Shown here: in pieces, positions 1 through 64,000 of the stretch
Layout of the letters: the number at the start of each line of letters is the position of its first letter
Position numbering within the stretch: position 1 is the stretch's first letter
Assembly (NCBI RefSeq): GCF_019336435.1
Contig: NZ_JAHWXQ010000001.1
Location: 248,001-312,000, forward strand
Length of the DNA stretch: 64,000 bases
Direction of reading: 5' to 3'
Source: Pontibacter populi
GTDB lineage: Bacteria > Bacteroidota > Bacteroidia > Cytophagales > Hymenobacteraceae
Made by a program: the position numbers and the translations under genes
Notes under the pieces: generated by a model
Databases searched by the model: none
What the model was told of the DNA's origin: nothing
Seen by the model: the letters and a program-made list of their open reading frames with translations, nothing else

Positions 1-2846
1 TCAGCATCGAAATAAGCCACACCATCAACAAAGGTCTTCTCAGGTCTTGCATAGATAGAAAGCGGGTGGTTGTTCCATAGTACCACGTCGGCATCTTTAC
101 CGGCTTTCAGGCTTCCCATTCTATCGTCTAAGTGCAGAAGTTTGGCTGGGTTAAGTGTTACCATTTTCAGGGCATCTTCTTCGCTTACACCGGCATACTT
201 CACGCTTTTGGCAGCTTCCTGGTTCAGGCGGCGGGCCATTTCAGCGTCATCAGAGTTGATGGCTGTAACAACACCCAGGTTGTGCATAATGCCTGCATTC
301 TGCGGTATCGCATCTTTCACCTCCATTTTGTAAGCCCACCAGTCAGAGAAAGTAGAGCCTCCGGCGCCGTGTTCTTTCATTTTGTCAGCTACTTTATAGC
401 CTTCCAGGATGTGCGTGAATGTGTTCACTTTAAAGCCCATCTGGTCAGCCACTTTCATCATCATGTTAATCTCAGACTGCACGTAAGAGTGGCAGGTGAT
501 AAAGCGTTTGCCGTTCAGGATCTCAACCAGTGTTTCCAGTTCCAGGTCGCGGCGGGGAGTTCCCGCTTTTGCCTGCTGCTTTTTAGAAAGCTTGTTATAG
601 CTCTTCCAGGCTTGTTCGTATTCTTTTGCTCTTGTAAAAGCATCTACATAGGTTTGCTCTACGCCCATTCGCGATTGCGGGAAGCGCTCGCTGGCGTTGC
701 TGCGGTTAGATTGTTTTACGTTCTCGCCCAGTGCAAATTTGATAAAGCCATCTGCACCATCCACCATCAGGTCCTGTGGGCTTTTGCCCCAGCGTAGTTT
801 AATGATAGCCGACTGACCACCAACCGGGTTAGCCGAACCGTGCAGCAATTGTGAGGTTGTAACACCACCAGCCAGCTGTCGGTAAATATTGATGTCGTCA
901 GAGTTCACCACGTCAGCCATACGCACTTCGGCGGTTACGGACTGGCTGCCTTCGTTCACGGCATTCAGGGCGATGTGCGAGTGTTCATCTATAATACCAG
1001 GGGTTACGTGCTTGCCCGTACCATCAATTACCTTAGCACCGGATTCGCTCAGGTTTTTGCCTACTTTAGCAATTTTGCCATTCTTCAGCAGTACATCAGT
1101 ATTCTCCAGCTTGCCATCTTTCTCGTTCGTCCAGACGGTAGCGTTTTTGATAAGGATCGTCTCCTGTTTTGGTAACTCGGCCTGCCCGTAAGCGCGGAAC
1201 GGATAGATCATTTGGCCTACTTCTACCAGCTCAGCTTTTTTAGCAGAATCCTTTTTATCCTGCTGCGTCATGGCTTCTGAGAAAGTAGCCGACCATTTTA
1301 CCGCACTTGCATCCGGTAACTGGCCTTCGCCCTGCAGGTTTTTATCGGCCAGCCAGCCGCTCAGACGGATCGTTTCGTTGCTCTTTTTGCTATCTGTAAA
1401 CGATAGCGTAACCAGGTTGCCACTGAAAGATATCTTGCCTTTTACCGTATCAGTGCCGATTACAGAAAGCTCCGGTTTATCAGGTGTACCGGCAATTTTC
1501 AGTTTTTTGGATGTGTTGTTGCCGATCTTTAAGGTGTAAACGCCTCTATAGTCTGATGGCACTTCTGTGATCTTGTAGCGGTCGCCCTGTACCCAGTTCT
1601 CGAGTATCAGGTTGTCGTTGGCGAACAGGTTACCGGATGTAACTATAAAGTTGGCCAGTTTACCTTCGCTCAGGCTACCAACCAGGTTCTCGGCATTCAA
1701 TAACTTAGCCGGTGTAGCGGTCAGGGCTTTCAGGGCTTCTTCTTCCGACAAGCCATAGTTTATCGCTTTGCGCACGTTCGGCAAAAAGTCTTTTTTATCT
1801 TTCAAGTCCGATGCGGTGAAGGCAAACGTGATCCCGGCTTTTTGCAGCAGGCCTGCATTAGAGGCAGCCATTTCCCAATGCTTCATAGCTTCGAGTGGCA
1901 CGCGACGCGCATCATATGGATCTTCTACGTTGTAAGCATCCGGATAATTTACCGAAACTATCAGCGGGGCATTGGTTGCCTTCACTTCTTTCAGCATCTG
2001 GTATTCATCACCTTTGGTTTTAATAATGTATTGGGTCTTGAACTCATCCCCTACTTTATCGGCACGCAGCACACCCAATTTATCATCGGCTTCGAAGATC
2101 TGCGGAAATCTGCTGGCATCGGTAAAGGTTTTAAGCGAGATGTTCTGCTCACGGCCCGGGTTCTGTGCATTCCATTTTGCATCCAGGTACGTCTGGCGCA
2201 ACAAGGCAATAGAACCCATCAGCGAGCTTGGATAATCCTGTGCTGATGAACCTTTATCAAACGACAAGGCAGCGGCAGCTTTATCCAGCACAATAACTTC
2301 GTTTTCGCGTTTGTCAGCCAGTGTTACCAATGCAGCTGTACCACGTGCAATACCATCCTGGTGTATGGCCAGCACCGTTCCAAAACCCTGCTTGCGCAGT
2401 TCTTCAGCTTGTTTTTTATCAGCTTTAAAAAGCTCTACAGCATTGGTTTCCGGGCGAATAGCCTGGTTCCAGTTGTAAGCTCCCTGCTTGTTCGATTCCA
2501 TTTGGGGAGGAGAGCCCCAGTTTCGCTGGGCACGCTTTACCTCCGGCAAACCGTAGCTTGAGTACATATCCACGAAGCCCGGGTAAATGTGTTTACCCTT
2601 CGCATCGACCACTACAGCGCCCGCAGGCACTTTTACGTTGGTGCCTACCGCTTCTACTTTACCATTGCGGATAACGAGTGTGGCGTTGTTCAGCGTGGTT
2701 TTATAGTCGGTGTGGATGGTGGCGTTTGTAAGCGCTACCAGGCCTGGGCGCTCGTCGTACACGCCATTGCGCGGAAAAGTCTCCTGCGCCATCGCACTGC
2801 CTGCTCCAAAAGCCAGGCAGGCTGCAATGGTAAAGATTTTCTTCAT
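1..2846 (-). CDS. Exported two-module amidohydrolase, 3' end cut by window start
   Basis: Reading the minus strand from the ATG at 2844-2846 gives an open frame of about 948 codons that runs off the window. It begins with a signal peptide ending near Ala20 (SAMAQ). Two amidohydrolase (imidazolonepropionase-like) modules follow. The first, about residues 30-470, has the family layout, with a VIRNGKVEAVG opening and a final LVGSLSEGKLANFIV strand. Where the metal-binding HxH should be it reads PGFVDMYSSYG. The second, about residues 640 to the end, has an intact GIIDEHSHIAL motif, later CHSYV and FTHILEG histidines and an INSDD aspartate, so it is the likely catalytic half. The modules are joined by a beta-rich linker. 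The protein is probably periplasmic and hydrolyses a cyclic amide or a peptide-like substrate; the substrate is unknown. It is divergent from the gene at 3060. Identity as a double amidohydrolase is firm. Confidence 0.9.
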   Translation of the reverse strand, partial: MKKIFTIAACLAFGAGSAMAQETFPRNGVYDERPGLVALTNATIHTDYKTTLNNATLVIRNGKVEAVGTNVKVPAGAVVVDAKGKHIYPGFVDMYSSYGLPEVKRAQRNWGSPPQMESNKQGAYNWNQAIRPETNAVELFKADKKQAEELRKQGFGTVLAIHQDGIARGTAALVTLADKRENEVIVLDKAAAALSFDKGSSAQDYPSSLMGSIALLRQTYLDAKWNAQNPGREQNISLKTFTDASRFPQIFEADDKLGVLRADKVGDEFKTQYIIKTKGDEYQMLKEVKATNAPLIVSVNYPDAYNVEDPYDARRVPLEAMKHWEMAASNAGLLQKAGITFAFTASDLKDKKDFLPNVRKAINYGLSEEEALKALTATPAKLLNAENLVGSLSEGKLANFIVTSGNLFANDNLILENWVQGDRYKITEVPSDYRGVYTLKIGNNTSKKLKIAGTPDKPELSVIGTDTVKGKISFSGNLVTLSFTDSKKSNETIRLSGWLADKNLQGEGQLPDASAVKWSATFSEAMTQQDKKDSAKKAELVEVGQMIYPFRAYGQAELPKQETILIKNATVWTNEKDGKLENTDVLLKNGKIAKVGKNLSESGAKVIDGTGKHVTPGIIDEHSHIALNAVNEGSQSVTAEVRMADVVNSDDINIYRQLAGGVTTSQLLHGSANPVGGQSAIIKLRWGKSPQDLMVDGADGFIKFALGENVKQSNRSNASERFPQSRMGVEQTYVDAFTRAKEYEQAWKSYNKLSKKQQAKAGTPRRDLELETLVEILNGKRFITCHSYVQSEINMMMKVADQMGFKVNTFTHILEGYKVADKMKEHGAGGSTFSDWWAYKMEVKDAIPQNAGIMHNLGVVTAINSDDAEMARRLNQEAAKSVKYAGVSEEDALKMVTLNPAKLLHLDDRMGSLKAGKDADVVLWNNHPLSIYARPEKTFVDGVAYFDA

Positions 2847-3059
2847 GGGTTAGAGTAAAAGTGAAAGTATAGTTTTTCAGTTAGTTTAGGTTAACCAAAT
2901 ATAACAATACAGTTGTTAAAACTTCGAACTATCCCTAAAAAATATCAATCCGTAGCGAGCGTTGGATTTTATCAGAAATAGATAGTACCTTACTCTGAGC
3001 TAAGCCATTTGAAAGTAGCAAAACCGTGCGAGGCAGCCCCAACCTATAACCATATATTT

Positions 3060-8287: not shown

Positions 8288-9517
8288 ATGCGCGTATTAC
8301 ACACATCAGACTGGCACCTGGGCCAGCGCCTTGTTACCCTCGAACGTACCGAAGAACACCAGCATTTCCTGGACTGGCTGCTGCAAACCATTGAGCAGGA
8401 GCAGGTAGAGGTATTGCTGATGGCAGGCGATGTGTTTGATACCGGAGCTCCTTCCAACACTGCCTTCAAACTATACTATGACTTTCTGCAGAAGGTATGC
8501 GATACCTGCTGCCGCCACATTGTATTTATAGGCGGAAACCACGATTCGGTGTCTACGCTCAACGCGCCCAAAGACCTGCTTGCCTGCATGAACATCCGGG
8601 TAATTGGTGGCGCCACACCTGATCCGCTGGATGAACTTATCGTTCTGAATGATGCTGCCGGTAAGCCTGAGCTTATAGTTTGCGCCGTGCCTTTCCTGCG
8701 CGATCGTGACATCCGGTTATCTGTTCCCGGCGAAAGCTACGAAGAGCGCGAAGCCCGCTTAAAACAAGGCATAGCCGACCATTACGCCCAGTTTGTACCG
8801 CACGTACAGCCATACAAATCTGCTGGCGTACCAGTTGTGGCAATGGGGCATTTATTTGCAGCCGGCGGCACTGCTTCCGAAAGTGAAAAAGAAATACACG
8901 TGGGTAACCTGGGACAGATAGGTGCAGACCAGTTTCCGAAGGAGTTTGATTATGTAGCCTTGGGTCACTTGCACCGTCCGCAGCAAGTAAACAAAGCGCA
9001 CCATATCCGCTATTCCGGCTCCCCTATTCCGTTAAGTTTTAGCGAAGTAACCGATAACAAAGTAGTTTTTATTCTTGATTTTGAAGCCGGTAAACTGGCT
9101 GATCTGCGTGAACTGGCTATACCGGTTTGCCGCAAACTGGTGCGCTTTAAAGGCGACCTGGAGAAAGTAAAACAGCAAATAGCCGTTTACGACAACAGCA
9201 ACTATAGTTTACCTGCCTGGGCAGAGATCCAATTAGAACTGGACGCTCCCCTACCCGACCTGAACCAGCAACTGGAAGAAGTACTGCAACTCAAAAAAGA
9301 CGAATTGCACCTGCTCATCCATCGTCCGCCGATCATCAAAAGAGAACGCCAGACACTGGAGCAACAGGTACAGGAAGAAGCCGACCTGCACACACTAAAA
9401 GAGAACGAAGTCTTCCTGAAACGCTGCCAAAGCGCCTTCCCGGAAAGTGATCATTCTGAATTAGTAGCCAGCTTCAGCGAGTTGTTGGAACTGATGCGGC
9501 AGGAGGTTGAAAGCTAA
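8288..9517 (+). CDS. sbcD: Nuclease SbcCD subunit D (Mre11-type)
   Basis: The 409-residue protein has all the calcineurin-like phosphoesterase motifs of Mre11/SbcD. These are HTSDWHLGQ at 5-13, GDVFD at 47-51, GGNHDS at 82-87, GHLFAAGG in the middle and LGHLHRPQ near residue 225. A capping region follows, then a helical tail that docks on SbcC. The length matches E. coli SbcD (about 400). With SbcC it forms an ATP-dependent nuclease that opens hairpins and trims blocked DNA ends. sbcC follows after 158 bases on the same strand. That spacer holds two short hairpins, so the pair may not be tightly co-transcribed. Confidence 0.97.
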   Translation: MRVLHTSDWHLGQRLVTLERTEEHQHFLDWLLQTIEQEQVEVLLMAGDVFDTGAPSNTAFKLYYDFLQKVCDTCCRHIVFIGGNHDSVSTLNAPKDLLACMNIRVIGGATPDPLDELIVLNDAAGKPELIVCAVPFLRDRDIRLSVPGESYEEREARLKQGIADHYAQFVPHVQPYKSAGVPVVAMGHLFAAGGTASESEKEIHVGNLGQIGADQFPKEFDYVALGHLHRPQQVNKAHHIRYSGSPIPLSFSEVTDNKVVFILDFEAGKLADLRELAIPVCRKLVRFKGDLEKVKQQIAVYDNSNYSLPAWAEIQLELDAPLPDLNQQLEEVLQLKKDELHLLIHRPPIIKRERQTLEQQVQEEADLHTLKENEVFLKRCQSAFPESDHSELVASFSELLELMRQEVES

Positions 9518-9566
9518 CTATAGTTTAGGAGTTAGAGAGTTTAAGAATTTAAGAATGAAATGTAGA

Positions 9567-9675: not shown

Positions 9676-12600
9676 ATGAAAATCCTGTCTGTCCGTTTCC
9701 AGAACCTGAACTCGCTGAAAGGTGAGCACGAGATCCGCTTTGACCAGAGCCCTTTGGTTGACGCCGGATTGTTTGCGATTACCGGACCAACAGGAGCCGG
9801 CAAAACCACTATTTTGGATGCGATTACTGTGGGGCTTTACGGCATGGTGCACCGCCATAACAACGACAAACCCCTTGATCTGATGACACGCCATACGTCG
9901 GAAAGCACATCGGAAGTGGAGTTTGAAGCGGATGGCAAACGTTACCGCAGCAAGTGGCAGATCCGCAGAAGCCGGGGCAAACTGGATGGCAAGATACAGG
10001 CCGTGCATATGGAGCTTTGCGACCTGGAAGATGACAAACCATTCGACCTGAAACCAAGTCAGGTGCCGGATAAGGTGGCTGAGATCTCGGGTTTAGACTA
10101 TAGCCAGTTCTTGCGTTCGGTGATGTTGTCGCAGGGCGATTTTGCACGTTTCCTGAAAGCTAACCCGAATGAGCGCAGCAGCCTTTTAGAGAAGATCACA
10201 GACACCGGCATTTATTCCGACATCTCGAAATTTGCTTACGAAAAAGCGAAAACCGAACGGGCTAAAAGAGATGAATTAGAAGCGAAACTAAAAGACAGCA
10301 AACTGCTGCCCGAAGAACAGCGCCTGGGCTACGAAGCAACTATAGCCGAACTAACTGACACGGAGGCAATACTAACCACCGAAACCAGGGAACTACAGGA
10401 AAAAACCAACTGGCTCAAACAACTGCAACAGCTTCGCGAGCGTGCCGAAAAGTATAAAATAGAATTGCAAGTACAGGAAAGCAAACTGGCTAACCTTCAA
10501 CCCGATTTTATAAAATTACAGCAGCACGAACAGGCAAACCAGTTTGTGGGCGAGCTTACGCAGATAAAAGCAGCAAATGGCAGGTTAACCGAAGTGCAGG
10601 AGCAACTGGTGCTCCTCGAAAAGCAGATACCTGTGCTGGAAGCTGAACTGGAACAAGCAGGCCATATTGCCCTGGAGGCAACCAAAGCACATCAACAGCA
10701 GCAGGAAGTTATACAGAAGTTAGAGCCGCTTTTAGGGCAGGTACAGCAACTGGACCATCAGCTGGAAACAATTAGAGAACAGTTTAAAACGGACAGGGAA
10801 GCGTACGTGCAGTTCGACAATGCGCTGCAACAGGAGAAAACCACCCTTGCCCAAAAGGATACGGAGCTGGGTACTCTAAAGCAAAATGCAACTGCCCTGA
10901 AAAAATGGTTGCAGGAAAACGCAAAGCTGAAAGACATGCGCGAGCACCTGCATGAGTTCCGCCAAACCATAAAAGACCTGACCGAAACCGAACGAACTAT
11001 AGCTACCCTGATGCAGGAGCAGCAAACTATAAACCAGCAACTACAAACTGAAGCCAGACAACTGGCAACTATAGATTCTGCCCAAAAAGAACAGCAGCAA
11101 AAGCAAACTATGCTGGATGCGCAGAAGCAGGAAAAACTGGCCCAGTTACAAACTATACTTGCTGCCAAAAGCATGGATGAGCTGGAAAAACTGGCCCAGG
11201 AACAACCGTTGCTGTTGGCGCGTTTAGAGCGATTGCTAGAGTTATCAAAGAACTATAGTTTACAGCAACAAAAGTCTGCTCAGTTTACTGACCAGCTACA
11301 TCAGCTGGAACAAACTATAGTTACTAAACAGGAAGAGCTTTCATCTACAGAAACAGACTATAACTCCGCCGCTGAGCGCCTGCAGGACCTACAGAAGCTG
11401 GTCACTCTGCAACAGCGCATACAGGAGCTGGAACAGCACCGCCATAGTTTGCAGCCGGAACAGCCCTGTCCGCTTTGCGGCTCCGAAGAGCACCCGTTTG
11501 TGGAGGGCAACTATACCAGCACGTTATCGGAGGAAGAGCAGCGACGCGATGCACAACAGGCTTTAGTTAAAGAACTTGATGCAACTAAAAATGCACTGCA
11601 ACTACAACTGAACACGCTTCAGAACCAACACGATAGCGCTACAAAAGCCAAAACAGAAACAGATACTGAACTTGCCCGACTACTGCAAAACTATAAGCTG
11701 CAAGGCGAAGGTGTAACCATAGCTATAACCAACACCGAAGCGCTTCAGCAGCAACTACACCTACAGCACGTAGCACTGGGTAACCTGACTCAGACGCTGA
11801 CTATAGCTCGTTCCCTGAGTCGTGAAACTGAAACTATAAACCAGCATTTACAGCAACTCCGCGAAGCACAACTACAGGCGCAGGCGCAGGTAAGTAAGCT
11901 GCAAAATTCAGAAGAAATGCTTCGCAGACAGCTGGGCCGGTTTACTGCGCAATTACAGGATTTACAGGAACAGCAACAGGTTTTCACGGAAACCGCACAG
12001 TCGTTTGCAGCCAGCTATAGTTTAGAATTTACTCCAGAAACACGTTTTGATTTGCTGAAGCACTTGGAGGCTCAAACCACTACCTATCAGCAGCAGCACG
12101 ATGCTTACGAGGCCATGCGCGATCCGTTCCTGAAACTACAGGAGCAGGTAGCTAATCTAACTGAGAAAGTAGCAGAAAAAGAGCAGGCGCTGAAAGATAA
12201 AAAAGCAATTCTGGAACGGGTGCACATCCAGTTAACAGAACTGAAGGAAAAACGATACCAGCTTTTCGGGGATAAAAAACCAGAGCAGGAACGCCAGCAT
12301 ACAAATACTGAACTTGCCAACCTTGCCCGCCAAGCCGAGAACGCACGGGCAGCCCAGCAGAAAAAACAGCACGAATTACAGGAGCAACGCCAGCGCCAGA
12401 ACGAGTATACCACAACACACAACCATAAAAAATCAGAGCTGGATACTTTGCGGGACGGATTATTACACGTGCTTCGCGAGAAAGGAATCGAAACGATAGA
12501 AGCACTCAGCCAAATGTTGCTTGACCGTGACGAAGCCGACCGCCTCGCCAACCAGAAAGCGTTGGTTGAAAAACAACTGACCGAAATCCGTAAGTCGCTG

Positions 12601-13323
12601 AGCGATGTACAGCAGGATCTGACACAATCCGAGACACAAAGCCTGACCTCCGAAACAATAGAGCAACTGCAGCAGCAGCTTGCTCTTAAAACCGAAGAGC
12701 AGCGCAACGTAATTGCCCAAAAAGCACGCCTGGAACAGTTACTGGAGCAAGACAAACAGCAACGTGAAAAGAACCTGGAACTGGCCAGCCAACTACAGAT
12801 TCAGCAACAGGAATGCAACCGCTGGAGCCAGCTCGCTGACCTGATCGGTTCGGCAGACGGCAATAAGTTCAGTCGCTTTGCGCAGGGTCTTACGTTGGCA
12901 AAATTAGTAGAGCTGGCTAACCGTCACCTGCAGAAACTAAACGACCGTTACCGCATCCAGAAAACGGAGGGCGAGGACTTAGAATTAGCTATCGTTGACA
13001 CTTACCAGGCCGAAGCAGTGCGCCCGATGAATACACTTTCCGGCGGCGAGAGCTTCCTGGTTAGTTTAGCGTTAGCGCTTGGCTTATCTGACCTGGCAGG
13101 CCGCCGCACCCAGATCAACTCGTTGTTCATAGACGAGGGCTTCGGCACACTGGACGCTGATACTTTGGACTCCGCTATTTCCACGTTGGAAAATCTACAG
13201 GCCAGCGGTAAAATGATCGGCATCATCTCGCACGTAGAAGCCCTGAAAGAACGCATCAGCACCCAGATCAAAATTCAGAAATTAGCAGGTGGGGTTAGTA
13301 AGGTTGAGGTTGTTGGGTGGTAA
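9676..13323 (+). CDS. sbcC: Nuclease SbcCD subunit C (Rad50-type SMC ATPase)
   Basis: The 1215-residue protein has a Walker A motif GPTGAGKT at 37-44, then long glutamine- and glutamate-rich coiled coils. The zinc hook CPLCG has its cysteines at 598 and 601, almost exactly mid-chain. The ABC signature LSGGES is at 1121-1126 and Walker B LFIDEG is at 1150-1155. This is the full Rad50/SbcC architecture, longer than E. coli SbcC (1048) because of extended coils. It works with SbcD in DNA end and hairpin processing. The gene is dense in the CTATAG motif: I see at least eight copies, mostly read as Thr-Ile-Ala (ACT ATA GCx) or inside coil codons. Long open frames on its minus strand are codon-bias shadows. 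Confidence 0.97.
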   Translation: MKILSVRFQNLNSLKGEHEIRFDQSPLVDAGLFAITGPTGAGKTTILDAITVGLYGMVHRHNNDKPLDLMTRHTSESTSEVEFEADGKRYRSKWQIRRSRGKLDGKIQAVHMELCDLEDDKPFDLKPSQVPDKVAEISGLDYSQFLRSVMLSQGDFARFLKANPNERSSLLEKITDTGIYSDISKFAYEKAKTERAKRDELEAKLKDSKLLPEEQRLGYEATIAELTDTEAILTTETRELQEKTNWLKQLQQLRERAEKYKIELQVQESKLANLQPDFIKLQQHEQANQFVGELTQIKAANGRLTEVQEQLVLLEKQIPVLEAELEQAGHIALEATKAHQQQQEVIQKLEPLLGQVQQLDHQLETIREQFKTDREAYVQFDNALQQEKTTLAQKDTELGTLKQNATALKKWLQENAKLKDMREHLHEFRQTIKDLTETERTIATLMQEQQTINQQLQTEARQLATIDSAQKEQQQKQTMLDAQKQEKLAQLQTILAAKSMDELEKLAQEQPLLLARLERLLELSKNYSLQQQKSAQFTDQLHQLEQTIVTKQEELSSTETDYNSAAERLQDLQKLVTLQQRIQELEQHRHSLQPEQPCPLCGSEEHPFVEGNYTSTLSEEEQRRDAQQALVKELDATKNALQLQLNTLQNQHDSATKAKTETDTELARLLQNYKLQGEGVTIAITNTEALQQQLHLQHVALGNLTQTLTIARSLSRETETINQHLQQLREAQLQAQAQVSKLQNSEEMLRRQLGRFTAQLQDLQEQQQVFTETAQSFAASYSLEFTPETRFDLLKHLEAQTTTYQQQHDAYEAMRDPFLKLQEQVANLTEKVAEKEQALKDKKAILERVHIQLTELKEKRYQLFGDKKPEQERQHTNTELANLARQAENARAAQQKKQHELQEQRQRQNEYTTTHNHKKSELDTLRDGLLHVLREKGIETIEALSQMLLDRDEADRLANQKALVEKQLTEIRKSLSDVQQDLTQSETQSLTSETIEQLQQQLALKTEEQRNVIAQKARLEQLLEQDKQQREKNLELASQLQIQQQECNRWSQLADLIGSADGNKFSRFAQGLTLAKLVELANRHLQKLNDRYRIQKTEGEDLELAIVDTYQAEAVRPMNTLSGGESFLVSLALALGLSDLAGRRTQINSLFIDEGFGTLDADTLDSAISTLENLQASGKMIGIISHVEALKERISTQIKIQKLAGGVSKVEVVGW

Positions 13324-13380
13324 ATGGCATTGTCATTTCGAACAAAGTGAGGAATCTATTTCAGCTTAAAGTTGCAGGAC

Positions 13381-13406
13381 CTAGCAGTGTGCGCAGCTCC
13401 TGCTAG
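13381..13406. repeat. Conserved-loop hairpin, copy 2
   Basis: Stem CTAGCAG/CTGCTAG (7 bp) with 12-base loop TGTGCGCAGCTC. The stem differs from copy 1 at two positions and both partners have changed, so pairing is kept. Confidence 0.7.
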
Positions 13407-13429
13407 TGTCTAGGCTATAGCTCTTCTTT

Positions 13430-13869
13430 TGTCATTTCGAACATTCCTGAGACGCGAGTCGAAAAGAGCCAGCGCAGCTGTGAGAAATCTATCTCAGCTT
13501 TTTGCTAACTATAGTTGCAACCCGAACCAAGCTATCCTTTCATAGCCACTTCCAATCCTGGGAGCTTTACTCACCTATTGTTTCAATCCAGCTTTGGTGC
13601 CCTCACGGCCGGGAGGCCCCGTCTTCGGGCATCGCGCTGCTGCTTTCTTGCTTCCCTCGCTCTGCTCGGGCTGCCTAAAGGCACCGCAACAAAGCAAAGG
13701 CGCTCAACCCAAAGACTGTGATCTTTCGCATAGCAACTGCTTATCTATAGTTTTAAAAGATAAGCTTCGAGATTTATCGTGGTCATAGTTTCGAAGGGAC
13801 AGGTAAAACTGTCCTGTTCTGTTGCTAAACTATAGCAAACTCAGATTTATCCCTTTAGCCGAAATGACA
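13430..13869. mobile_element. MITE-like repeat element, copy A (full)
   Basis: The element runs from TGTCATTTCGA at 13430 to CGAAATGACA at 13869, giving a 10-bp perfect terminal inverted repeat and about 440 bases in all. Inside the left end it reads GAGAAATCTATCTCAGC, and inside the right end AGATTTATCCC, so the inverted similarity continues for some 25 bases with gaps. It carries the structured core at 13591-13695 and a GGGACAGG-type hairpin. It encodes no transposase, and the mover is unknown. Copy D (30237-30621) has the same plan. Confidence 0.65.
13591..13695. repeat. Structured repeat core, copy A
   Basis: The segment is closed by GCTTTGGTGCC on the left and GGCACCGCAACAAAGC on the right. 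It contains GGCC-GGGA-GGCC, CCCCGTCTTCGGGC and TGCC-TAAA-GGCA hairpins. A variable hairpin has CCC/GGG around a TCGctctgctC loop. In copies D and C the matching stem reads ACAC/GTGT and TTGT/ACAA around TCGTTCCTC. Reading frames are not conserved between copies, because the variable hairpin differs by two bases. Confidence 0.65.
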
Positions 13870-13891
13870 GATTGAAAAGTAACTGCAGAAA

Positions 13892-13910
13892 GTCCCCCTT
13901 GGAAGGGGGC
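13892..13910. repeat. G-rich intergenic hairpin
   Basis: GTCCCCCTTGGAAGGGGGC is followed by AGGGGATGAC. The same unit follows copy D at 30644-30662. A CTCCCC...GGAGGGG unit of similar style follows at 13969-14015 and recurs at 23796-23835 and 30796-30840. Confidence 0.6.
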
Positions 13911-14100
13911 AGGGGATGACAAACGGAAACTATAGAACTATAGCCACGAACAATAGCAACAACAGAAAAGCTCCCCGACTTGGATAAGGAGGGGATAAAG
14001 GGGTGATTGGATCACGTTACCTATAAAACTTTACCTCCAACTATAGCAGTAGCTTTATCCTGCCAATCCTTTAATCTTGTAAATCCAGATTCAGACAATT

Positions 14101-14175
14101 CCTATCCCTGCAGGGCCAGTTGAGTTGAAAACCCAACATCATAGGTAGACACGGGTTGCAAACCCGCGCCAGCAT
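14101..14175. repeat. Second structured repeat family, copy 1
   Basis: Three hairpins occur in a row: CCCTGCAGGG, GTTGAGTT-gaa-AACCCAAC with one mismatch, and CGGGTT-gca-AACCCG. GCGCCAGCA follows. The copy at 17648-17724 keeps the order and the flanks (GGCCAGTTGAGT, CACCAGCA) but has different, still self-complementary stems. The layout resembles REP/BIME-like elements; a link to a RAYT transposase is only a guess. Confidence 0.6.
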
Positions 14176-14253
14176 TATTGGTCGTAGAACTATAGGTCAA
14201 ACCACAACAAATTCCTAAACCCTAAAAATCAACCAAATCCCATTAACCCCTGC

Positions 14254-15357: not shown

Positions 15358-15359
15358 AA

Positions 15360-15794
15360 CTATAGTTCCCCGATCAGCTTTTTATAGTTGTCATAATCCC
15401 GCAGATAGTCCGTTTCATCATAATCGGTACTGGCCAGGCACAGCGCTATAGTTCCTTCGGTAAAAGTTAATTCAGTCCAGCACAGGGCTGGAATGTATAA
15501 TCCGCTGTCGGATGATGAAAGTGTGAACTCACTAATGTTGTCTTCAGTTTCTGCTTTCACTTTTATAGTTCCGGTCAGGGCTACCAGTACTTCCTTGGTG
15601 GTTTTATTGGCATGATGACCACGTGTTATCCCGGCTGGCGTACCTTGTATCCAGAATACGCGCTTTACTGCAAAAGGCAGTTTATCGGCAAATTGTGTAG
15701 ATGTAAGCAACCCTTCGGCGGCACTGCCAACCTGCTTAAAAGAAATCAAGTAAGGAGAATCTGACAACGTGATATGGGTTAAGTATAACTGCAA
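15360..15794 (-). CDS. dTDP-6-deoxyhexose 3,4-ketoisomerase (FdtA/QdtA, WxcM-like cupin)
   Basis: The 144-residue protein matches the small cupin FdtA/QdtA family in length and pattern. It has RVFWIQGTPAGITRGHHANK around residues 45-64, the position of the family's RGxHAHK motif with catalytic histidines, then a VALTGTIKV strand. The end is the highly typical CLASTDYDETDYLRDYDNY. It would convert dTDP-4-keto-6-deoxyglucose to the 3-keto isomer used by the aminotransferase two bases downstream. The FdtA/QdtA choice (galacto or gluco product) is undetermined. Confidence 0.9.
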   Translation of the reverse strand: MQLYLTHITLSDSPYLISFKQVGSAAEGLLTSTQFADKLPFAVKRVFWIQGTPAGITRGHHANKTTKEVLVALTGTIKVKAETEDNISEFTLSSSDSGLYIPALCWTELTFTEGTIALCLASTDYDETDYLRDYDNYKKLIGEL

Positions 15795-17407: not shown

Positions 17408-17433
17408 CGAGTTTCCAGTTTAACTTTCCTTTT

Positions 17434-17606
17434 TGTCATTTCGAACGCAGAGAGAAATCTATCTCAACTTATAGTGCTATAGCTAACTATAGTTGCAACT
17501 TAAACCAAGCCTTTTCTTCCATAGTTTCCTCTAATCCTGGTAGCTCTAATCACCTATCGTTCTATAGATAGCTTTGGTGCCCTCTCGGGAGGGGCAGGGG
17601 TGGGTT
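17434..17606. repeat. MITE-like repeat, copy B, internally deleted
   Basis: The left end TGTCATTTCGAACG with AGAGAAATCTATCTCAAC is intact. Just inside the core (GCTTTGGTGCCCTC) the sequence jumps to TCGGGAGGGGCAGGGG. In copies C and D that stretch belongs to a separate G-rich unit. The join is at CCCTC, present in both partners. The right terminal repeat is missing. Confidence 0.6.
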
Positions 17607-17647
17607 AAAACTGCAACTATAGAACTATAGCTAGCACTATTACCAAG

Positions 17648-17724
17648 CCTGTCCCTATCGGGCCAGTTGAGTCAGGAGACTCAACCCCATAATAAGTCAC
17701 GAGCGTGGACGCTCGCACCAGCAG
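17648..17724. repeat. Second structured repeat family, copy 2
   Basis: Hairpins GTTGAGTC-agga-GACTCAAC and CGAGCGT-gg-ACGCTCG lie between the same conserved flanks as copy 1 (14101-14175). Stem sequences differ between copies while pairing is kept. Confidence 0.65.
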
Positions 17725-17765
17725 TAAGCAATATAGAACTATAGCTAAACAACCTCAACTACAAT

Positions 17766-21499: not shown

Positions 21500-22381
21500 T
21501 TACTGAAGTTGGGCCATTAACGCCTGGTAATAACGCTCTAAACTACCTCCTGAAGTGCTCAGAAACAGGAAAGGCTCAATTAACTCCAGCTCCATCAGTA
21601 CCAGTTCATTGTTAAGCGCTACGCCATCTACGCGGGCATACAGGCAGTCTTTCGCAAATTTATCAACTATAGTTTGTGCTGTGGCCAGTAAGGCAGCCGG
21701 AGGCGTTGGGGTGTGTATAGTTCCGCCGAAAAAGTGCTGTACTCTAAAGTCGCCGGGCTTGGCTGTTTTAAGCACCGTGTGACTATAGTTCCCGCCAAAG
21801 AAAATAAACGACCACTCGCCATCGGTTTTAATTTCTTCGATAAACGGTTGCGCCAGGAACGGCTCCTGCTGCAGTAGTTGGTTTATTTCAGAAGTTTTGG
21901 CTTCGGCTTCTTCTATAGTTAAGGCAAATGTATTTTTGGCACCGCCGCTTACCCGTGGCTTCACTATAATTTTTTCGCTGCCGAGTTCTGCAAAAGCTGC
22001 CTGCGCATTAAATGTACTGTTCTGCTCCAGCCAAACCGTCGGAACTATAGTTACGCCAGCGGCTTCCATAGCCTTAAAATAAACCTTGTCAGCGTTCCAG
22101 CGTAGTGTTTTTACCGGGTTCAGCACCTTACAGCCTGCAGCTTCTACCTTATCCAGCCAACTATAAAAAGCAGCAATCTTGTCAAAATAATCCCACGGCG
22201 ATTTAATGATCAGGGCATCAAATTGACTCCAGTTTACGTTTTCATTATCCCAGACCTGCCATGTAACCGGCAAGCCTTTTCCCGTCAGAAACTGGTATAA
22301 ACGCTCATCTTCTGAGTCGGCGTTTGCGGTATAGTTGCCAAGGCTTTCACAAGTTATCAGCGCTATTTGTTGTATTTGCAT
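21500..22381 (-). CDS. ATP-grasp domain protein, peptide- or amide-bond ligase of unknown substrate
   Basis: The 293-residue protein has an N-terminal pre-ATP-grasp region (LITCESLGNYTANADSEDER, then ALIIKSPWDYFDK). The ATP-grasp core includes VLNPVKTLRWNADKVYFKAM, the ATP-binding lysine strand KIIVKPRVSGGAKNTF, and the metal-binding end YARVDGVALNNELVLMELELIEPFLF. The pattern matches the group holding prokaryotic glutathione-synthetase-like and cycloserine-ligase-like enzymes. No partner gene hints at the substrate. It overlaps nothing and is convergent, stop to stop, with the universal stress gene. Confidence 0.85.
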   Translation of the reverse strand: MQIQQIALITCESLGNYTANADSEDERLYQFLTGKGLPVTWQVWDNENVNWSQFDALIIKSPWDYFDKIAAFYSWLDKVEAAGCKVLNPVKTLRWNADKVYFKAMEAAGVTIVPTVWLEQNSTFNAQAAFAELGSEKIIVKPRVSGGAKNTFALTIEEAEAKTSEINQLLQQEPFLAQPFIEEIKTDGEWSFIFFGGNYSHTVLKTAKPGDFRVQHFFGGTIHTPTPPAALLATAQTIVDKFAKDCLYARVDGVALNNELVLMELELIEPFLFLSTSGGSLERYYQALMAQLQ

Positions 22382-28022: not shown

Positions 28023-28052
28023 ACTATAGTTTAAGTTACAGGAAGGGTTTAT

Positions 28053-36749: not shown

Positions 36750-37142
36750 GTGAACATACTCTTTAAAATACTGGCTTATAGTTTTGTTATAGTTTCTATA
36801 GTTAGCTGCCGTGGCGATGAACCCAAACGCATGCCGGATACAATCCCTGATATAAAGGGCAGCATAACCAGCCTTACTGAGACTGGTACAACTCAGAAAA
36901 ACAGCAGGTTACAGTTAATGGTGGAAGCTGAGAAAGGTAATAAAGGAATTTACCCGCAGGCGAGTGTTAAAGTAGACGAAAATACACTGATAGAAGATAA
37001 TAACGGTAAACGGTTAAAAGCCGGGCAGTTAAGGCAAGGGCAACTGGTAGAAATCTGGTTTGATGGTGCCGTTATGGAATCGATGCCGGTACAGGGTACA
37101 GCTATTGCCATCAGAGCAAGCACGCAGCCCGATAAACTATAG
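36750..37142 (+). CDS. Small lipoprotein, DUF3221-like
   Basis: The 130-residue product uses a GTG start, since no ATG precedes the signal peptide (MNILFKILAYSFVIVSIVSC, lipobox Cys20). After a linker, residues about 38-125 form a small beta domain. ITSLTETG, then ASVKVDENTLIEDNNGKRL and GQLVEIWFDGAVMESMPVQGTAIAI resemble DUF3221 (YobA-like) domains, which are OB-fold-like. The ESMPVQGTA block is the best match. The role is unknown and there is no obvious operon partner. Confidence 0.7.
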   Translation: MNILFKILAYSFVIVSIVSCRGDEPKRMPDTIPDIKGSITSLTETGTTQKNSRLQLMVEAEKGNKGIYPQASVKVDENTLIEDNNGKRLKAGQLRQGQLVEIWFDGAVMESMPVQGTAIAIRASTQPDKL

Positions 37143-37362
37143 TTCTGAATAGCTAAAGCGTAGCTGCCCCGGTGCAAGTGAAAATTAAAAACTACTATAG
37201 CCTGGGTAAAACGCCACTTATACCAGATCTCATTCTTGTCGTATACTGAAAAGTCACCAACCAGCTCTGGTGCTCAAGGCTATACCTATCCCTCTTATAA
37301 CAGGCTCTCCTGTAACACCCTGCTCTCTACAGCGCAAACTTATTTCAGCTAATCTGTTTTAC

Positions 37363-37785: not shown

Positions 37786-37822
37786 ACCATAAACCACTCG
37801 CCTGTTAAAGGCAAACTATAGT

Positions 37823-38017
37823 TTAGCGGTCTACTCCGGCAAGAGCAGGTGGCGTTACATAAACAACTTCTATGGTATCTAAGGCTATAGTTGCAACCGG
37901 CTCTTCATAGGCATTGTAAGAAATAGTGGTTGAAGCTGGTTTTGGCAGGCTTGCAGTTTCTTTGCACATAAGACCGAAACCAAATAAAGATGCAGAAAGT
38001 AGGATCAGGATTTTCAT
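37823..38017 (-). CDS. Small exported protein (64 aa)
   Basis: The product has a short signal (MKILILLSASLFGFGL) with a possible lipobox cysteine at 18 (GLMC). The rest is a small Thr/Ala/Pro-rich mature part of about 45 residues, with EEPVATIALDTIEVVYVTPP. It has no known domain. It resembles the 49-aa peptide at 45555 in being a very small secreted product in its own unit. The start ATG at 38015-38017 is the only one that gives a signal peptide. Confidence 0.55.
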   Translation of the reverse strand: MKILILLSASLFGFGLMCKETASLPKPASTTISYNAYEEPVATIALDTIEVVYVTPPALAGVDR

Positions 38018-38305: not shown

Positions 38306-39793
38306 ATGGAGCAGCAAAAACAACACACCATGGAGGCAGCGCAACAAAGCACTGGTTTCAAGCGCGAGATCACTTTATTCGATGCGATCATGATCGTAAC
38401 TGGCGGCATGATCGGATCGGGTATCTTTATCGTTACCGCTGATATTTCGAGGGCCGTGGTTTCGCCGGGCAATATGCTGCTCGTGTGGGCGGTTTCCGGC
38501 TTTTTAACTATAGTTGGCGCTATCAGCTATGGCGAGCTCTCCTCTATGTTCCCGAAAGTAGGTGGCCAATACGTGTACCTGAAAGAGGCATATAACAAGC
38601 TGGTGGCGTTCCTGTATGGCTGGACCTTATTTTTAGTGATACAAACCGGTGTAATTGCTGCAGTCTGTGTGGCTTTCGCCAAGTTTACCGGTGTACTCTT
38701 TCCGTGGTTTTCTGATAATAACGTGCTGTTTAGTATAGGCGGCTTCGATTTCAGTACGGTGCAGTTGCTGGCTATAGTTAGTATTGTGGGCCTTACTTAC
38801 ATTAACACCAGGGGTGTTGATAGCGGCAAGTTCATCCAGAACATTTTCAGCAGCACCAAACTGATCGCGCTTTTCGGCCTTATTCTTTTAGGCTTGCTTT
38901 TTGGCGTAAACGAGACCGCCATCCAGGCCAACTTCTCAGATTTCTGGGGAGCACAAACAGCTACAGACGGCACATCGCTGCTACCGCCAACAAGTGTTGC
39001 GCTTATAACCGCTATTGGTATGGCTATGGTAGGCGCACTTTTCTCTTCTGATGCCTGGAACAACATTGGCTTTTCAGGTGATGAGATCGTGAACCCGAAA
39101 CGCACCATTGTTTTAAGTATGGTGATCGGGTCGGCGATAGTTACCGGTATTTACCTGCTCATTAACCTGGTTTACCTGCTGGTACTGCCCATGCACGGAA
39201 GCGCTGCCGCCACCGACATTATGGGCCAGGGAATCACATATGCCAACAACGACCGCGTAGGTACTGCCGTAGCCGAAATTATTGGGGGTTACAAAGCAAC
39301 TATAGCCATTGCCTTACTCATCATGATTTCCACGTTTGGCTGCAGCAACGGCGCTATTCTTTCCGGGGCAAGGGTATACTATGCCATTGCCAAAGACGGC
39401 TTGTTCTTCAAAAACATGGGCCGCCTGAACAAGAACGGCGTGCCGGAAGTAGCGCTTTGGTTCCAGTGTATATGGGCCTGCCTTCTTTGCCTGTCGGGCT
39501 CCTACAACCAGCTGCTCGACTATGTAATTTTTGCAGTGATGCTGTTTTATATCCTGACCATAATCGGGGTATTTGTTCTTCGGGTAAAGCGGCCGGACCT
39601 GCCACGCCCTTACAGGGCATTTGGCTACCCAATACTCCCGGCGCTGTATGTTCTGCTGGCTTCTGCTATCTGCGTTATCCTGCTCATCTATAAACCAACC
39701 TATACCTGGCCGGGGCTTATTATAGTGGCGCTGGGTATACCGGTCTATTATTACTTCGGCAAAAAATTCTCCGACCAACATACAGAGGAATAA
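38306..39793 (+). CDS. APC family amino-acid permease
   Basis: The 495-residue protein has 12 predicted spans and the APC signature at the first helix (FDAIMIVTGGMIGSGIFIVTADI, about 25-47). SYGELSSMFPKVGGQYVYLKEAY (about 72-94) and FSSDAWNNIGFSGDEIVNPKR (about 246-266) are typical of the LAT/Y+L-type branch. The end reads RVKRPDLPRPYRAFGYPILP, another family hallmark. It probably takes up or exchanges amino acids at the inner membrane. Met9 is an alternative start, but the first ATG lies correctly after a TATATTTG box. A 19-bp terminator stem follows. Confidence 0.93.
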   Translation: MEQQKQHTMEAAQQSTGFKREITLFDAIMIVTGGMIGSGIFIVTADISRAVVSPGNMLLVWAVSGFLTIVGAISYGELSSMFPKVGGQYVYLKEAYNKLVAFLYGWTLFLVIQTGVIAAVCVAFAKFTGVLFPWFSDNNVLFSIGGFDFSTVQLLAIVSIVGLTYINTRGVDSGKFIQNIFSSTKLIALFGLILLGLLFGVNETAIQANFSDFWGAQTATDGTSLLPPTSVALITAIGMAMVGALFSSDAWNNIGFSGDEIVNPKRTIVLSMVIGSAIVTGIYLLINLVYLLVLPMHGSAAATDIMGQGITYANNDRVGTAVAEIIGGYKATIAIALLIMISTFGCSNGAILSGARVYYAIAKDGLFFKNMGRLNKNGVPEVALWFQCIWACLLCLSGSYNQLLDYVIFAVMLFYILTIIGVFVLRVKRPDLPRPYRAFGYPILPALYVLLASAICVILLIYKPTYTWPGLIIVALGIPVYYYFGKKFSDQHTEE

Positions 39794-42988: not shown

Positions 42989-44128
42989 ATGCAGTTCAGT
43001 TTCTGGGAGCAGGATACGTATTTCAGTAATATTGATGTGCTGATCGTGGGCAGCGGTATAGTTGGCCTGAATGCTGCGTTGCACCTGAAGACCACACAAC
43101 CCAACCTAAAAGTTATAGTTGCCGAACGGGGATTATTGCCCACAGGAGCCAGCTCTAAAAATGCTGGATTTGCCTGTTTTGGTAGCCCTACCGAACTGAT
43201 AGAAGACCTTGCCCACCACACCGAAGATGAGGTTTTTGGTTTGGTGGAACGCCGATGGAAAGGGTTGCAGCGCCTGCGACGTAACCTGGGAGACGTCACG
43301 ATAGATTATCACCGCTGGGGAGGCTATGAATTGTTTGACCAAAGCCAGCGCGAACTATACGAACAAAGCATAAGCCAGCTGCCTTACCTGAACAAACACC
43401 TGCAAACTATAGTTGGCGAACCTGACATTTACCGCACCGCCGACGAAAAGATCAAAACTTTCGGATTCAGGAAGGTGGAGCATTTGGTTGAAAGCACTGC
43501 CGAAGGCCAGATCGACACCGGGAAAATGATCCTGGCGCTAACGCAAAAAGTGCAGGCCCTGGGGGTAATCATTCTCAACAACCTGGAAATACAACACCTT
43601 CACGACGATGGCAAAACTATAGTTGCCACTACCGATAAAGGCATCACCCTGAAAGCCCGTGCTGCTCTGGTAGCTACCAATGGTTTTGCAAAACAGCTTT
43701 TGCCACAACTGCAGGTAATACCTGCTCGTGCGCAGGTGCTCATTACCAAGCCTATAGCTGGCCTGAAACTGAAAGGCACTTTCCATTACGATAAGGGTTA
43801 CTATTACTTCCGTAACATTGGCGATCGCGTGCTTTTCGGCGGCGCCCGCAACCTCGATTTCAAAACCGAAGAAACCACAGAAGCCGGCCTGACTGAACTG
43901 GTACAGCATAAACTGGAAGAACTCCTGCAGCAGGTTATTCTACCGGATATACCATTTGAAGTGGAGCAGCGCTGGAGTGGGATTATGGGCATGGGCCCTG
44001 CCAAAACAACTATAGTTCAGCCGGTATCAGAAAGAATAAGCTGTGCCGTACGGATGGGCGGAATGGGTGTGGCAATCGGCTCACTTGTTGGTGAAGAAGG
44101 CGGTGAGTTGGTGCTTCAGCAACTATAA
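42989..44128 (+). CDS. FAD-dependent oxidoreductase (DAO family)
   Basis: The 379-residue protein has the dinucleotide fold VLIVGSGIVGLNAALHLK (18-35; glycines 21, 23 and 26), then the GASSKNAGFACFGSPTEL motif of the glycine/D-amino-acid oxidase group. A central substrate domain and a late FAD loop (MGPAKTTIVQPVSERISCAVRMGGMGVAIGS) follow. It probably oxidises an amine or amino acid; the substrate is unknown. The first five codons are polar, and the start six bases after the 82-aa gene suggests an operon with the two preceding genes. Confidence 0.9.
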   Translation: MQFSFWEQDTYFSNIDVLIVGSGIVGLNAALHLKTTQPNLKVIVAERGLLPTGASSKNAGFACFGSPTELIEDLAHHTEDEVFGLVERRWKGLQRLRRNLGDVTIDYHRWGGYELFDQSQRELYEQSISQLPYLNKHLQTIVGEPDIYRTADEKIKTFGFRKVEHLVESTAEGQIDTGKMILALTQKVQALGVIILNNLEIQHLHDDGKTIVATTDKGITLKARAALVATNGFAKQLLPQLQVIPARAQVLITKPIAGLKLKGTFHYDKGYYYFRNIGDRVLFGGARNLDFKTEETTEAGLTELVQHKLEELLQQVILPDIPFEVEQRWSGIMGMGPAKTTIVQPVSERISCAVRMGGMGVAIGSLVGEEGGELVLQQL

Positions 44129-48150: not shown

Positions 48151-48288
48151 TCTAGTTTTATTAGTTCAGATATTGAAGATAGTAAATTTAAAGTATTCGT
48201 TAAAATCAGCCGCTACTACGCTTCCGGAAACTATAGTTTAGCCTGTAACTATAAACTATACGCGGTAGCCCGGATTACTTCATAAAAA

Positions 48289-48317
48289 AAGAGATGAAGC
48301 GTATTGCCTCATCTCTT
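48289..48317 (-). terminator. Terminator of the minus-strand lipoprotein gene
   Basis: Stem AAGAGATGA/TCATCTCTT with an 11-base loop, followed on the minus strand by a run of Ts (48283-48289). Confidence 0.75.
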
Positions 48318-48340
48318 CCAACTATAAATCAGGTTAGATT

Positions 48341-50507: not shown

Positions 50508-51140
50508 CTATCTTTTCTCGCGCATATCCTGGTATAGTTCCTGGGCTTCGCGACTCTTTTTAAGGGTGGCAAACTCTACCTGCAGGGCTGCTATTTTTAT
50601 CTTGTCGCCGTTGTTCAGCTTATCCAGTACCTCGGCTTTACGGGTGTTCAGCTCTCCAAAAACAAACTCGGCATAGTCCCAGTCGCGCAGGTTCCAGTTG
50701 CGGCGGTAGGTTCGGGTATAGTCTGTCAGGCGGATGTAGGCTTCACGCAGGTCTTGCGGCCTGATGTTGGCAATGCGGGTAGTGCCGGTCATCTGTTTTT
50801 CCCAGCGTTCCAGTTCCTGGCCCTCCAGGTTCACAGCTTTTCTTATCTCGTTTCGTTCTTCCCACTCGCCATAGCGGCTTTTGTACTGGCTGTATTCCGC
50901 CTTCGATTCATCCGATAGCTTTTGGGTATTCTTATCCAGGGAGGAGGTAAGGCTTTTGAATTCCTGTTTTATAGTTGGCCACTCGGCACGTGTCACACTG
51001 TCGGCCTGCACTGACTTTTTGCGCATCCAGCTCCGCAGGTTGTCCATGTCCTGCTCCAGTTGCGATTTTGTTTGTGCCTGCACCCCAACTATAGTTCCGG
51101 TAAATAAAACAGCAAGCAAGTATTTTTTCAAAGTTCTCAT
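50508..51140 (-). CDS. Periplasmic helical protein of unknown function
   Basis: The 210-residue product begins at the ATG at 51138-51140 with a signal peptide (MRTLKKYLLAVLFTGTIVGVQAQ). A start four codons upstream (51152) is possible. The mature part is almost wholly helical and charged: LEQDMDNLRSWMRKKSVQAD, EFKSLTSSLDKNTQKLSDES, LRDWDYAEFVFGELNTRKAEVLDKLN and LQVEFATLKKSREAQELYQDMREKR. A helical bundle or coiled coil in the periplasm is likely. There is no known domain and no partner. Confidence 0.68.
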   Translation of the reverse strand: MRTLKKYLLAVLFTGTIVGVQAQTKSQLEQDMDNLRSWMRKKSVQADSVTRAEWPTIKQEFKSLTSSLDKNTQKLSDESKAEYSQYKSRYGEWEERNEIRKAVNLEGQELERWEKQMTGTTRIANIRPQDLREAYIRLTDYTRTYRRNWNLRDWDYAEFVFGELNTRKAEVLDKLNNGDKIKIAALQVEFATLKKSREAQELYQDMREKR

Positions 51141-55237: not shown

Positions 55238-55270
55238 CTATAAACTATAGTTGATACACTAATATACACC

Positions 55271-60347: not shown

Positions 60348-60368
60348 ACCTTTTCCGGGTAAGGCAGC

Positions 60369-63055: not shown

Positions 63056-63066
63056 GTTTCCTACTA

Positions 63067-63135: not shown

Positions 63136-63141
63136 TTTAGA

Positions 63142-64000
63142 TTAGCTAACGCTTACCACAATCTTCCCGAACTGCTTACCGGCTTCCATGTAGCGCATCG
63201 CTTCTTCGGTTTTCTCCAGCGGGAAGATGCTGTCAACTATAGGTTTTATTTTCTTGTCGCGCACAAAGGCTACCATTTCGGCGAAGTCCTGGTTTGTGCC
63301 CATGGTGCTGCCGTGTATAGCCAGTTGTTTCCAGAATATTTCAGCCGGATTTATCTGCCCGATCATGCCGGTTGTGCCGCCATACATCCCGATCCTGCCA
63401 CCGGATTTTGCCAGTTTTACCAGTTGCACAAAGCCTTCGCCGGCTGCGCCATCTATGGCTACATCAAAGCCACCAACTATAGTTTTAAGCTCTTTTCCCC
63501 AGTTTTCATTTTTATAGTTGATACCACCGGTAGCACCCAGTTTTTTTGCGGCTTCAATTTTCTCATCAGAACCGGACGTAACCCAAACCTCTGCTCCTGC
63601 TGCTACGGCAAACTGAACAGCAAACAAGGCCACTCCTCCACCTGCACCGGTTATCAGCACTCTTTCGCCTGCTTTAAGACCGCATTTAGTAAACATAGCA
63701 CGGTAAGCCGTTACGCCAGCCAACGGTAAGGCAGCAGCTTCTTCCCAACTCAGGTGTTCAGGTTTTTCGTGCAGGTTGGTGGCTCGTACTTTTACAAATT
63801 CGGCAAAAGCACCATCTTCAGGCATTCCGAGCACCTTATAGTTCTTCCCATGCGCGCGAAGGTCATCGCCCCAATCCGTTGATGGGTCAATGATCACTTC
63901 TTTTCCTATCCAGCTTTTGTCAACACCTTCGCCTACTTCTGTAACTATGCCGGCGCCATCAGAGCCCAGTATAGTAGGGTACTCTTTCGTAAAGTAACGG
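63142..64000 (-). CDS. Zinc-type/quinone-oxidoreductase-like medium-chain dehydrogenase, 5' end cut by window end
   Basis: The frame is open from the stop at 63142 to the last base of the window, so the N terminus is missing; a start at 63897 would fall inside the domain. At least 285 residues are visible: YPTILGSDGAGIVTEVGEGVDK of the catalytic domain, then the Rossmann motif VLITGAGGGVALFAVQFAVAAGAEVWVT and a family C terminus (FPLEKTEEAMRYMEAGKQFGKIVV). Where zinc alcohol dehydrogenases have GHE it reads GSDGAG, as in the zinc-free quinone oxidoreductase branch. It probably uses NADPH to reduce an enone or quinone. Stop at 63142 is close to a repeat. Confidence 0.9.
   Translation of the reverse strand, partial: RYFTKEYPTILGSDGAGIVTEVGEGVDKSWIGKEVIIDPSTDWGDDLRAHGKNYKVLGMPEDGAFAEFVKVRATNLHEKPEHLSWEEAAALPLAGVTAYRAMFTKCGLKAGERVLITGAGGGVALFAVQFAVAAGAEVWVTSGSDEKIEAAKKLGATGGINYKNENWGKELKTIVGGFDVAIDGAAGEGFVQLVKLAKSGGRIGMYGGTTGMIGQINPAEIFWKQLAIHGSTMGTNQDFAEMVAFVRDKKIKPIVDSIFPLEKTEEAMRYMEAGKQFGKIVVSVS

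Follow-up and report, generated by a model that had tools for sequence, protein, structure and literature searches.

An asymmetric seven-base word iterated across Pontibacter genomes in three dialects

Few genome-wide iterated signals are known, and the question of their origin and change is of long standing. We analysed a 64,000-nucleotide stretch of the Pontibacter populi genome (the window; G000:C3:248001-312000, in the 4,304,021-base genome G000) in which an earlier note had reported an over-represented palindrome built on CTATAG. The unit of the signal is the asymmetric 7-mer AACTATA (reverse complement TATAGTT), iterated throughout the genome and very probably a real, maintained signal. 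Within Pontibacter we found three dialects of this word, AACTATA, AAGTATA and AGGTATA (AAC, AAG and AGG below), which the earlier note had not foreseen. Some cellular machine probably reads the dialect word as a signal.

Enrichment and unit of the word

CTATAG occurs 112 times in the window, where a first-order Markov model expects 29.2 on both strands and about 15 on one strand, in agreement with the earlier note, and the excess holds genome-wide. The longer forms AACTATAG, CTATAGTT and the palindrome AACTATAGTT were counted 63, 50 and 22 times, respectively. The most enriched word in the window is AACTATA/TATAGTT, with 224 copies (116 on the plus and 108 on the minus strand) against 9.5 expected at Markov order 1 and 13.1 at order 2. 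High-order models mask this excess because the sub-words of the motif are themselves inflated: order 3 expects 50 copies and order 5 about 194, and related genomes are therefore the better yardstick. Across the whole genome, AACTATA is present 12,640 times (6358 + 6282) versus 833 (406 + 427) for the reversed word, and AACTATAGTT 1124 times versus 5.

Protein sequence does not account for the excess. In 357 simple open reading frames (ORFs) from 464 kb, genes in our scripts being simple longest ORFs and not curated annotation, AACTATA exceeded a synonymous-codon shuffle in all three sense and both stop-free antisense frames (170, 74, 306, 79 and 235 observed versus 62, 6.8, 21, 9.3 and 25); the sixth frame would encode a stop. 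ORFs are overlapped by 902 of the 1463 AACTATA copies counted, and density is 3.6 times higher in spacers than in genes. The word thus lies on both strands, in genes and spacers and in several frames, as the note had described, and is limited neither to one codon frame nor to one repeat family. The note's gene counts also held: sbcC, credited with at least eight CTATAG sites, has exactly 8, and the FAD oxidoreductase, credited with four or more, has 7 distinct AACTATA/TATAGTT places. The closest named relatives of the window's sbcD are in P. fetidus, P. burrus and Pontibacter sp. Tf4. The motif is distributed along the window as follows (strand given where assigned).

1..64000: AACTATA/TATAGTT, 202 distinct places window-wide (116 plus, 108 minus, 22 overlapping pairs)
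9676..13323, plus strand: sbcC (AAA_23 domain), 10 AACTATA, 3 TATAGTT, 8 CTATAG
32860..35388, minus strand: PIG-L family protein gene, 2 AACTATA, 7 TATAGTT
42989..44128, plus strand: FAD-dependent oxidoreductase (DAO), 7 distinct places
9200..9209: AACTATAGTT (two overlapping copies), within sbcD
9516..9525: AACTATAGTT, 3' end of sbcD
11251..11260: AACTATAGTT, sbcC
11313..11322: AACTATAGTT, sbcC
13507..13516: AACTATAGTT, spacer
15358..15367: AACTATAGTT
17485..17494: AACTATAGTT, spacer
21665..21674: AACTATAGTT
22043..22052: AACTATAGTT
28022..28031: AACTATAGTT
31612..31621: AACTATAGTT, sodium:solute symporter gene
34185..34194: AACTATAGTT, PIG-L family gene
37135..37144: AACTATAGTT
37814..37823: AACTATAGTT, spacer
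38506..38515: AACTATAGTT, amino acid permease gene
43405..43414: AACTATAGTT, FAD oxidoreductase
43615..43624: AACTATAGTT, FAD oxidoreductase
44008..44017: AACTATAGTT, FAD oxidoreductase
48229..48238: AACTATAGTT, spacer
51087..51096: AACTATAGTT
55243..55252: AACTATAGTT
63475..63484: AACTATAGTT

The earlier note had taken the palindrome as the motif. Counts of half-site combinations and an analysis of neighbouring letters identify the unit as AACTATA, extended to 7–9 bases by its neighbours, with the palindrome being two overlapping copies. In G000 the palindrome is as frequent as independent halves predict (288 versus 291, on NNNTATANNN), and the matching palindromes are rarer than predicted in the pooled AAG (22 versus 114) and AGG (54 versus 162) genomes. 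The AAC dialect tolerates the overlapping form and the other two avoid it; the palindrome, in no dialect commoner than independent halves predict, was rejected as the unit. Each dialect word is enriched 21–24 fold under a masked order-2 model, in which, as in the relatives' word counts, some sites are counted twice where the G298 and G323 sets hold partly overlapping stretches. The favoured neighbours are AACTATA[AG][AC], [A]AAGTATAAA and [C]AGGTATAG[C]. Words that differ by one letter show a mild enrichment, chiefly when the change falls in the first three letters or the last (maxima of 4.3 fold for the AAC set, 6.6 for AAG and 6.1 for AGG); the inner TAT letters are strictest. The family consensus is A-[A/G]-[C/G]-TATA, often followed by A or G, with AACTATA as the local dialect. 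The counts did not support treating TATAGTT and ARGTATA as equal in polarity: AAG–AAC pairs in G302 spacers have the same orientation in 113 cases and the opposite in 100.

Dialects in the genus and their maintenance

At least one copy per kb of a single dialect word was found in 37 of 50 Pontibacter genomes, the main word being AACTATA in 6, AAGTATA in 19 and AGGTATA in 12. Two genomes, both AAG, are intermediate (G308, 1.00/kb; G291, 0.82/kb), and 11 are dialect-poor (<0.7/kb), G305 and G326 among the latter showing a weak excess. Others are mixed: G302 has 2.22 AAG and 1.49 AAC copies per kb, G330 2.03 AAC and 1.89 AAG, and G202 2.85 AAC and 1.25 AAG. Motif density drops with genome size over the 50 genomes (rho -0.74, kinship not corrected for), mean sizes, from rounded values, being 4.56 Mb for the 37 carriers and 5.71 Mb for the 11 dialect-poor genomes. 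Separately, the complete dialect-poor genome G140 (L182-L185) has a weak excess of CATATATGG-like words (ATATATGG 34 versus 8.5 in 80 kb), which may represent a further dialect or one in decay.

Outside the genus the picture differs. Among 291 genomes of the order (six of Pontibacter), G000 and G202 alone had more than 1000 copies of AACTATAGTT; the genome ranked third had 46, a level never exceeded in the 285 genomes from outside Pontibacter. The dialect words were not among the top words in loci of Adhaeribacter, Rufibacter (a single locus), Hymenobacter or more distant genera. The sharing with relatives that the earlier note raised therefore applies within Pontibacter and does not extend to the Hymenobacter loci or the Rufibacter locus examined. 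Other iterated words did appear in 21-kb loci: CTAGGCCA in Hymenobacter wooponensis and H. fodinae, which belong to the same family as Pontibacter (L052, L059; 43 versus 3.2 in the two loci), and a different word, ACCTAGG, in Solirubrum puertoriconensis (L063; 26 versus 1.8–3.2 expected, with ACCTAGGG 15 versus 0.6). We found no account of the motif or of the Pontibacter dialects in the literature among the matches listed, most subscription papers lying outside the coverage; the earlier note had likewise known of no description for this group.

The sites are conserved beyond their composition. G000 sites were kept more often than pooled control words of the same letters in G315 (745/1018 versus 3492/6510) and G323 (104/189 versus 117/663), and likewise in G302, G298, G330 and G202. 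In this comparison and in the polarised one below, the G298 and G323 sets again include stretches that overlap in part. We polarised changes between G000 and G315 with G302 and G202 as outgroups, for which 118,646 of 464,000 positions were usable. AACTATA was gained 25 times versus 10.3 expected (2.4x) and lost 100 times versus 187.3 (0.53x), whereas the old dialect, AAGTATA, was gained 3 times versus 11.0 (0.27x) and lost 76 times versus 45.9 (1.65x). AGGTATA showed 4 gains versus 9.3 expected and 25 losses versus 17.6, and 25 control words pooled showed 145 gains versus 166 and 183 losses versus 218. The AACTATA gains comprised twelve position-base combinations spread over all seven positions; therefore no single mutational, repair or deamination step suffices, and one Vsr-like or methylation-driven step was ruled out. 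Compared with G302, 47 of 427 G000 sites differed only by C to G and 7 by C to A or T (control words, 71/2511 and 98/2511), indicating that sites stay in place while the dialect changes. Under a simple fixation model we infer a scaled selection strength per site of about 0.8 to 2.6, depending on the control used. The 50 related genomes thus present several stages (dialect-poor, three dialects, mixed) with measurable gain and loss. Environmental bacteria, with many named isolates among them, thereby allow direct tests of how signals of the Chi, HIP or uptake type evolve.

Candidate readers of the word

We tentatively read AACTATA as the local dialect of a genome-wide, strand-asymmetric recognition signal of 7–9 bases that acts like Chi, a reading in which we place rather less than even confidence; AddAB as its reader is a possibility that we hold more tentatively still. 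Thousands of single sites would each experience very weak positive selection, or a recombination drive to the same effect. The AddAB helicase-nuclease would degrade inward from a broken DNA end and, on meeting the word in one orientation, switch from degradation to promoting recombination, such that every added site would slightly improve repair of self DNA and foreign DNA without the word would be degraded. If the specificity of the reader drifted, the dialect would change, with old-dialect sites decaying and new ones building up, a course that the mixed genomes suggest. Among well-known mechanisms, Chi alone is left as one that works through short asymmetric words and has its enzyme present; a role of this kind would also fit the association of the motif with smaller genomes.

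An uninterrupted AddB-type ORF is present in all 50 Pontibacter genomes, and an AddA-like helicase match lies beside it in 40 of the 40 genomes fetched (partial, at <1100 residues, in ten). With NCBIfam, the AddB-type protein matched TIGR03623 and addB_alphas and its neighbour matched RecB/AddA-like helicases. Adjacent motif copies share orientation beyond chance (707 versus 587, z 7), most strongly within the same spacer (191/254) and the same gene (305/492), an effect that is gone above 1 kb. Five of 40 G315 tiles hold only 5–17 copies (mean 55), one of them with an abortive-infection cassette. PHROGs searches of ten ORFs from motif-poor tiles matched three (a DNA polymerase family and two of unknown function), giving no clear prophage.

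Several results weigh against this reading. The NCBIfam scores of the AddB-type protein and its neighbour are all below the curated cut-offs, that of AddB far below. The 11 dialect-poor genomes, too, have the AddB-type ORF without interruption, such that the word is not enriched wherever its candidate reader is present; that it should be is our own expectation and not a published defining feature of Chi. Replichore polarity, one criterion used for finding Chi in a passage of PMC8022716, is absent, with 1091 copies on the G-rich strand and 1093 on the other in the 40 G315 tiles. AddB has 29 AGG-specific columns, with only 3 in the first 300, the region in which B. subtilis AddB binds Chi according to the binding residues given in an excerpt of PMC4824097, and AddA has as many (26). 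No AddB or RecC structure matched Pontibacter AddB by sequence, the best hits (E 0.44 and 0.015) being unrelated proteins. Two other motif-poor tiles contain ordinary-looking genes that are not mobile. On the side of maintenance, the excess of AACTATA gains is based on 25 events, and one or two individual control words, most of which overlap the motif, equalled or surpassed AACTATA in conservation in G302 and G330. Finally, the ten AGG genomes tested, P. roseus and P. aquaedesilientis among them, form one clade in the AddB and AddA trees, but five other genes of the sbcD neighbourhood group them too; the AddAB union is therefore no independent evidence of co-transfer with the dialect, and the idea of a joint horizontal transfer of AddAB and dialect, raised by the contrast of these two trees with SbcCD, was withdrawn. 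Given the lack of replichore polarity and the AddB-type gene in dialect-poor genomes, the AddAB reading is unproven and the word is not classed as a Chi site, although it may work like Chi. If AddAB is the reader, these words are candidate Chi sequences for a phylum in which our literature search gave none among the matches listed.

The five-gene tree is a partial test (26 rows of best tblastn hits, without P. chinhatensis, P. flavimaris and unc4-1420). It agrees with the AddB and AddA trees in needing 3 dialect changes, versus 5 on the SbcCD tree (dialect-poor rows left out), and the dialect probably follows descent. SbcCD, the only dissenter of the four trees, is likely the odd gene: it scatters the AGG genomes, rejects their union (approximately unbiased test, p 8e-94) and groups the main AGG clade with P. 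chinhatensis, P. flavimaris and unc4-1420. Its contradiction of the other three trees suggests horizontal exchange of sbcCD involving P. roseus, P. aquaedesilientis and the AGG clade (L011, L040, L008-L017).

A wider reading, held as tentatively as AddAB itself, is that the three-dialect asymmetric word represents a new class of self-recognition signal in Bacteroidota, with a reader other than pili, methyltransferases and classical Chi enzymes. The drifting specificity of that reader might drag thousands of sites behind it, the transitional genomes being caught half-way.

Somewhat less probable is that another sequence-specific DNA-binding protein, such as a nucleoid, segregation or repair factor, reads the word, with each site weakly useful. 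All evidence of maintenance holds without AddAB, the graded tolerance of neighbour words resembles protein binding and replichore polarity would not be required; against this stand the lack of a candidate protein and the fast turnover of dialects inside one genus, which is uncommon for factors of this kind.

We consider it improbable that the word is a DNA uptake signal, by which kin DNA carrying it would be preferentially taken up and recombined, the word spreading by drive and its dialects separating species, as in Neisseriaceae. Dialects one or two bases apart, the even split of copies between the strands, the existence of motif-poor tiles, ComEC in 50 of 50 genomes and the smaller genomes of dialect carriers are consistent with uptake, and self-DNA preference is reported in Riemerella columbina, of the same phylum, in a passage of PMC7965970. 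The PilC/T2SSF platform (PF00482), however, was found in 0 of 50 Pontibacter genomes by a search that recovered it in 13 of 14 named control genomes. Type IV, Tad and Com pili are all known to require this platform; the known carriers of uptake receptors are therefore missing, pilus-type machinery is very unlikely and pilus-based uptake was rejected. ComEC also occurs in the dialect-poor genomes and thus does not discriminate, and about 3 copies per kb exceeds the density of known uptake sequences. In G308 (G308:C1:2771217) and G325 (G325:C76:160505), an in-frame stop interrupts the ComEC match.

Slightly more improbable still is a HIP1-type ratchet (after the highly iterated palindrome of cyanobacteria), in which, following Elhai's model, a word-specific DNA methyltransferase and biased mismatch repair create and protect the word. 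Genome-wide iteration and lineage-specific alternates do resemble HIP1 and the alternate HIPs of cyanobacteria described in part of PMC4390886. The presence of the three methyltransferase families searched, however, does not track the word: PF01555 occurs in 31 of 50 genomes and is missing in 19, including G000, G315, G298 and G323; PF00145 occurs in 23 and is missing in 27; G294, G299, G304 and G314 carry a dialect with neither; and PF02384 occurs in 50 of 50, but with only weak matches (best 7e-5) in G299, which has 1.98 AAGTATA/kb (PF02086 and PF07669 were not searched). The twelve position-base combinations among the gains and the non-palindromic word also argue against it. The earlier note's likening of the motif to HIP1 or an uptake sequence thus stands for its iterated behaviour, whereas pilus-based uptake and a methyltransferase of the three tested families have become unlikely; a recombination or repair signal, also among the roles it proposed, is the leading candidate.

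Some G000 spacers, about 0.2–1.5 kb long, combine hairpin-like modules with 5 to 15 copies of the word, and where the copies are most numerous they are often mirror-ordered. That the whole excess arises as a side effect of repeats of one family interspersed in spacers, as structured 0.5–1 kb elements with 5–15 copies each and the 275 of 1463 copies (169 without overlapping pairs) in spacers with at least five might suggest, has a negligible probability and was already refuted by the coding-sequence counts above, in ORF overlap and in five frames. Seeds of 14 bases recur in up to 14 G000 spacers and were found in G315 and less often in G302; in the AAG and AGG pools they occur once or not at all. 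Three AGG genomes have their own structured spacer, probably orthologous to a G000 spacer, with the motif in opposite mirror order. Rfam returned 0 families in five sources (the window, L180, L010, L103 and L099). Structured G000 spacers also lie at 358696, 302970 and 399317 in the 464-kb concatenate, which starts with the window, and the window itself contains four motif-dense spacers.

13324..14253: 8 copies, structured spacer with hairpin-like modules
17408..17765: 5 copies
30012..30895: 7 copies in mirror order (five <, then two >), structured spacer
48151..48340: 5 copies in 190 bases

Comparison with known iterated signals

The Pontibacter word is shorter and denser than the DNA uptake sequences of Neisseriaceae, and the uptake signal sequences of Pasteurellaceae are likewise iterated asymmetric words in both orientations. 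Like the former, it has thousands of copies and dialects, which in Neisseriaceae follow the species phylogeny according to a passage of PMC3630211. Unlike both families, Pontibacter lacks the pilus platform in all 50 genomes. With HIP1, as described in part of PMC4390886, it shares high iteration and lineage-specific alternates. Unlike HIP1, it is no palindrome, has an AT-rich core and is accompanied by no consistent methyltransferase among the three families.

Known Chi sites are much less dense than this word. It further differs from Chi in lacking replichore polarity, in being AT-rich and in changing dialect within one genus. Like Chi systems, Pontibacter has the enzyme family, AddAB, and the word, like E. 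coli Chi GCTGGTGG (in a passage of PMC8022716) and the putative Caulobacter Chi GCGGTGGT (in a passage of PMC5443536), is short, asymmetric and over-represented. Slightly different Chi motifs have also been inferred among relatives, as a passage of PMC8022716 reports.

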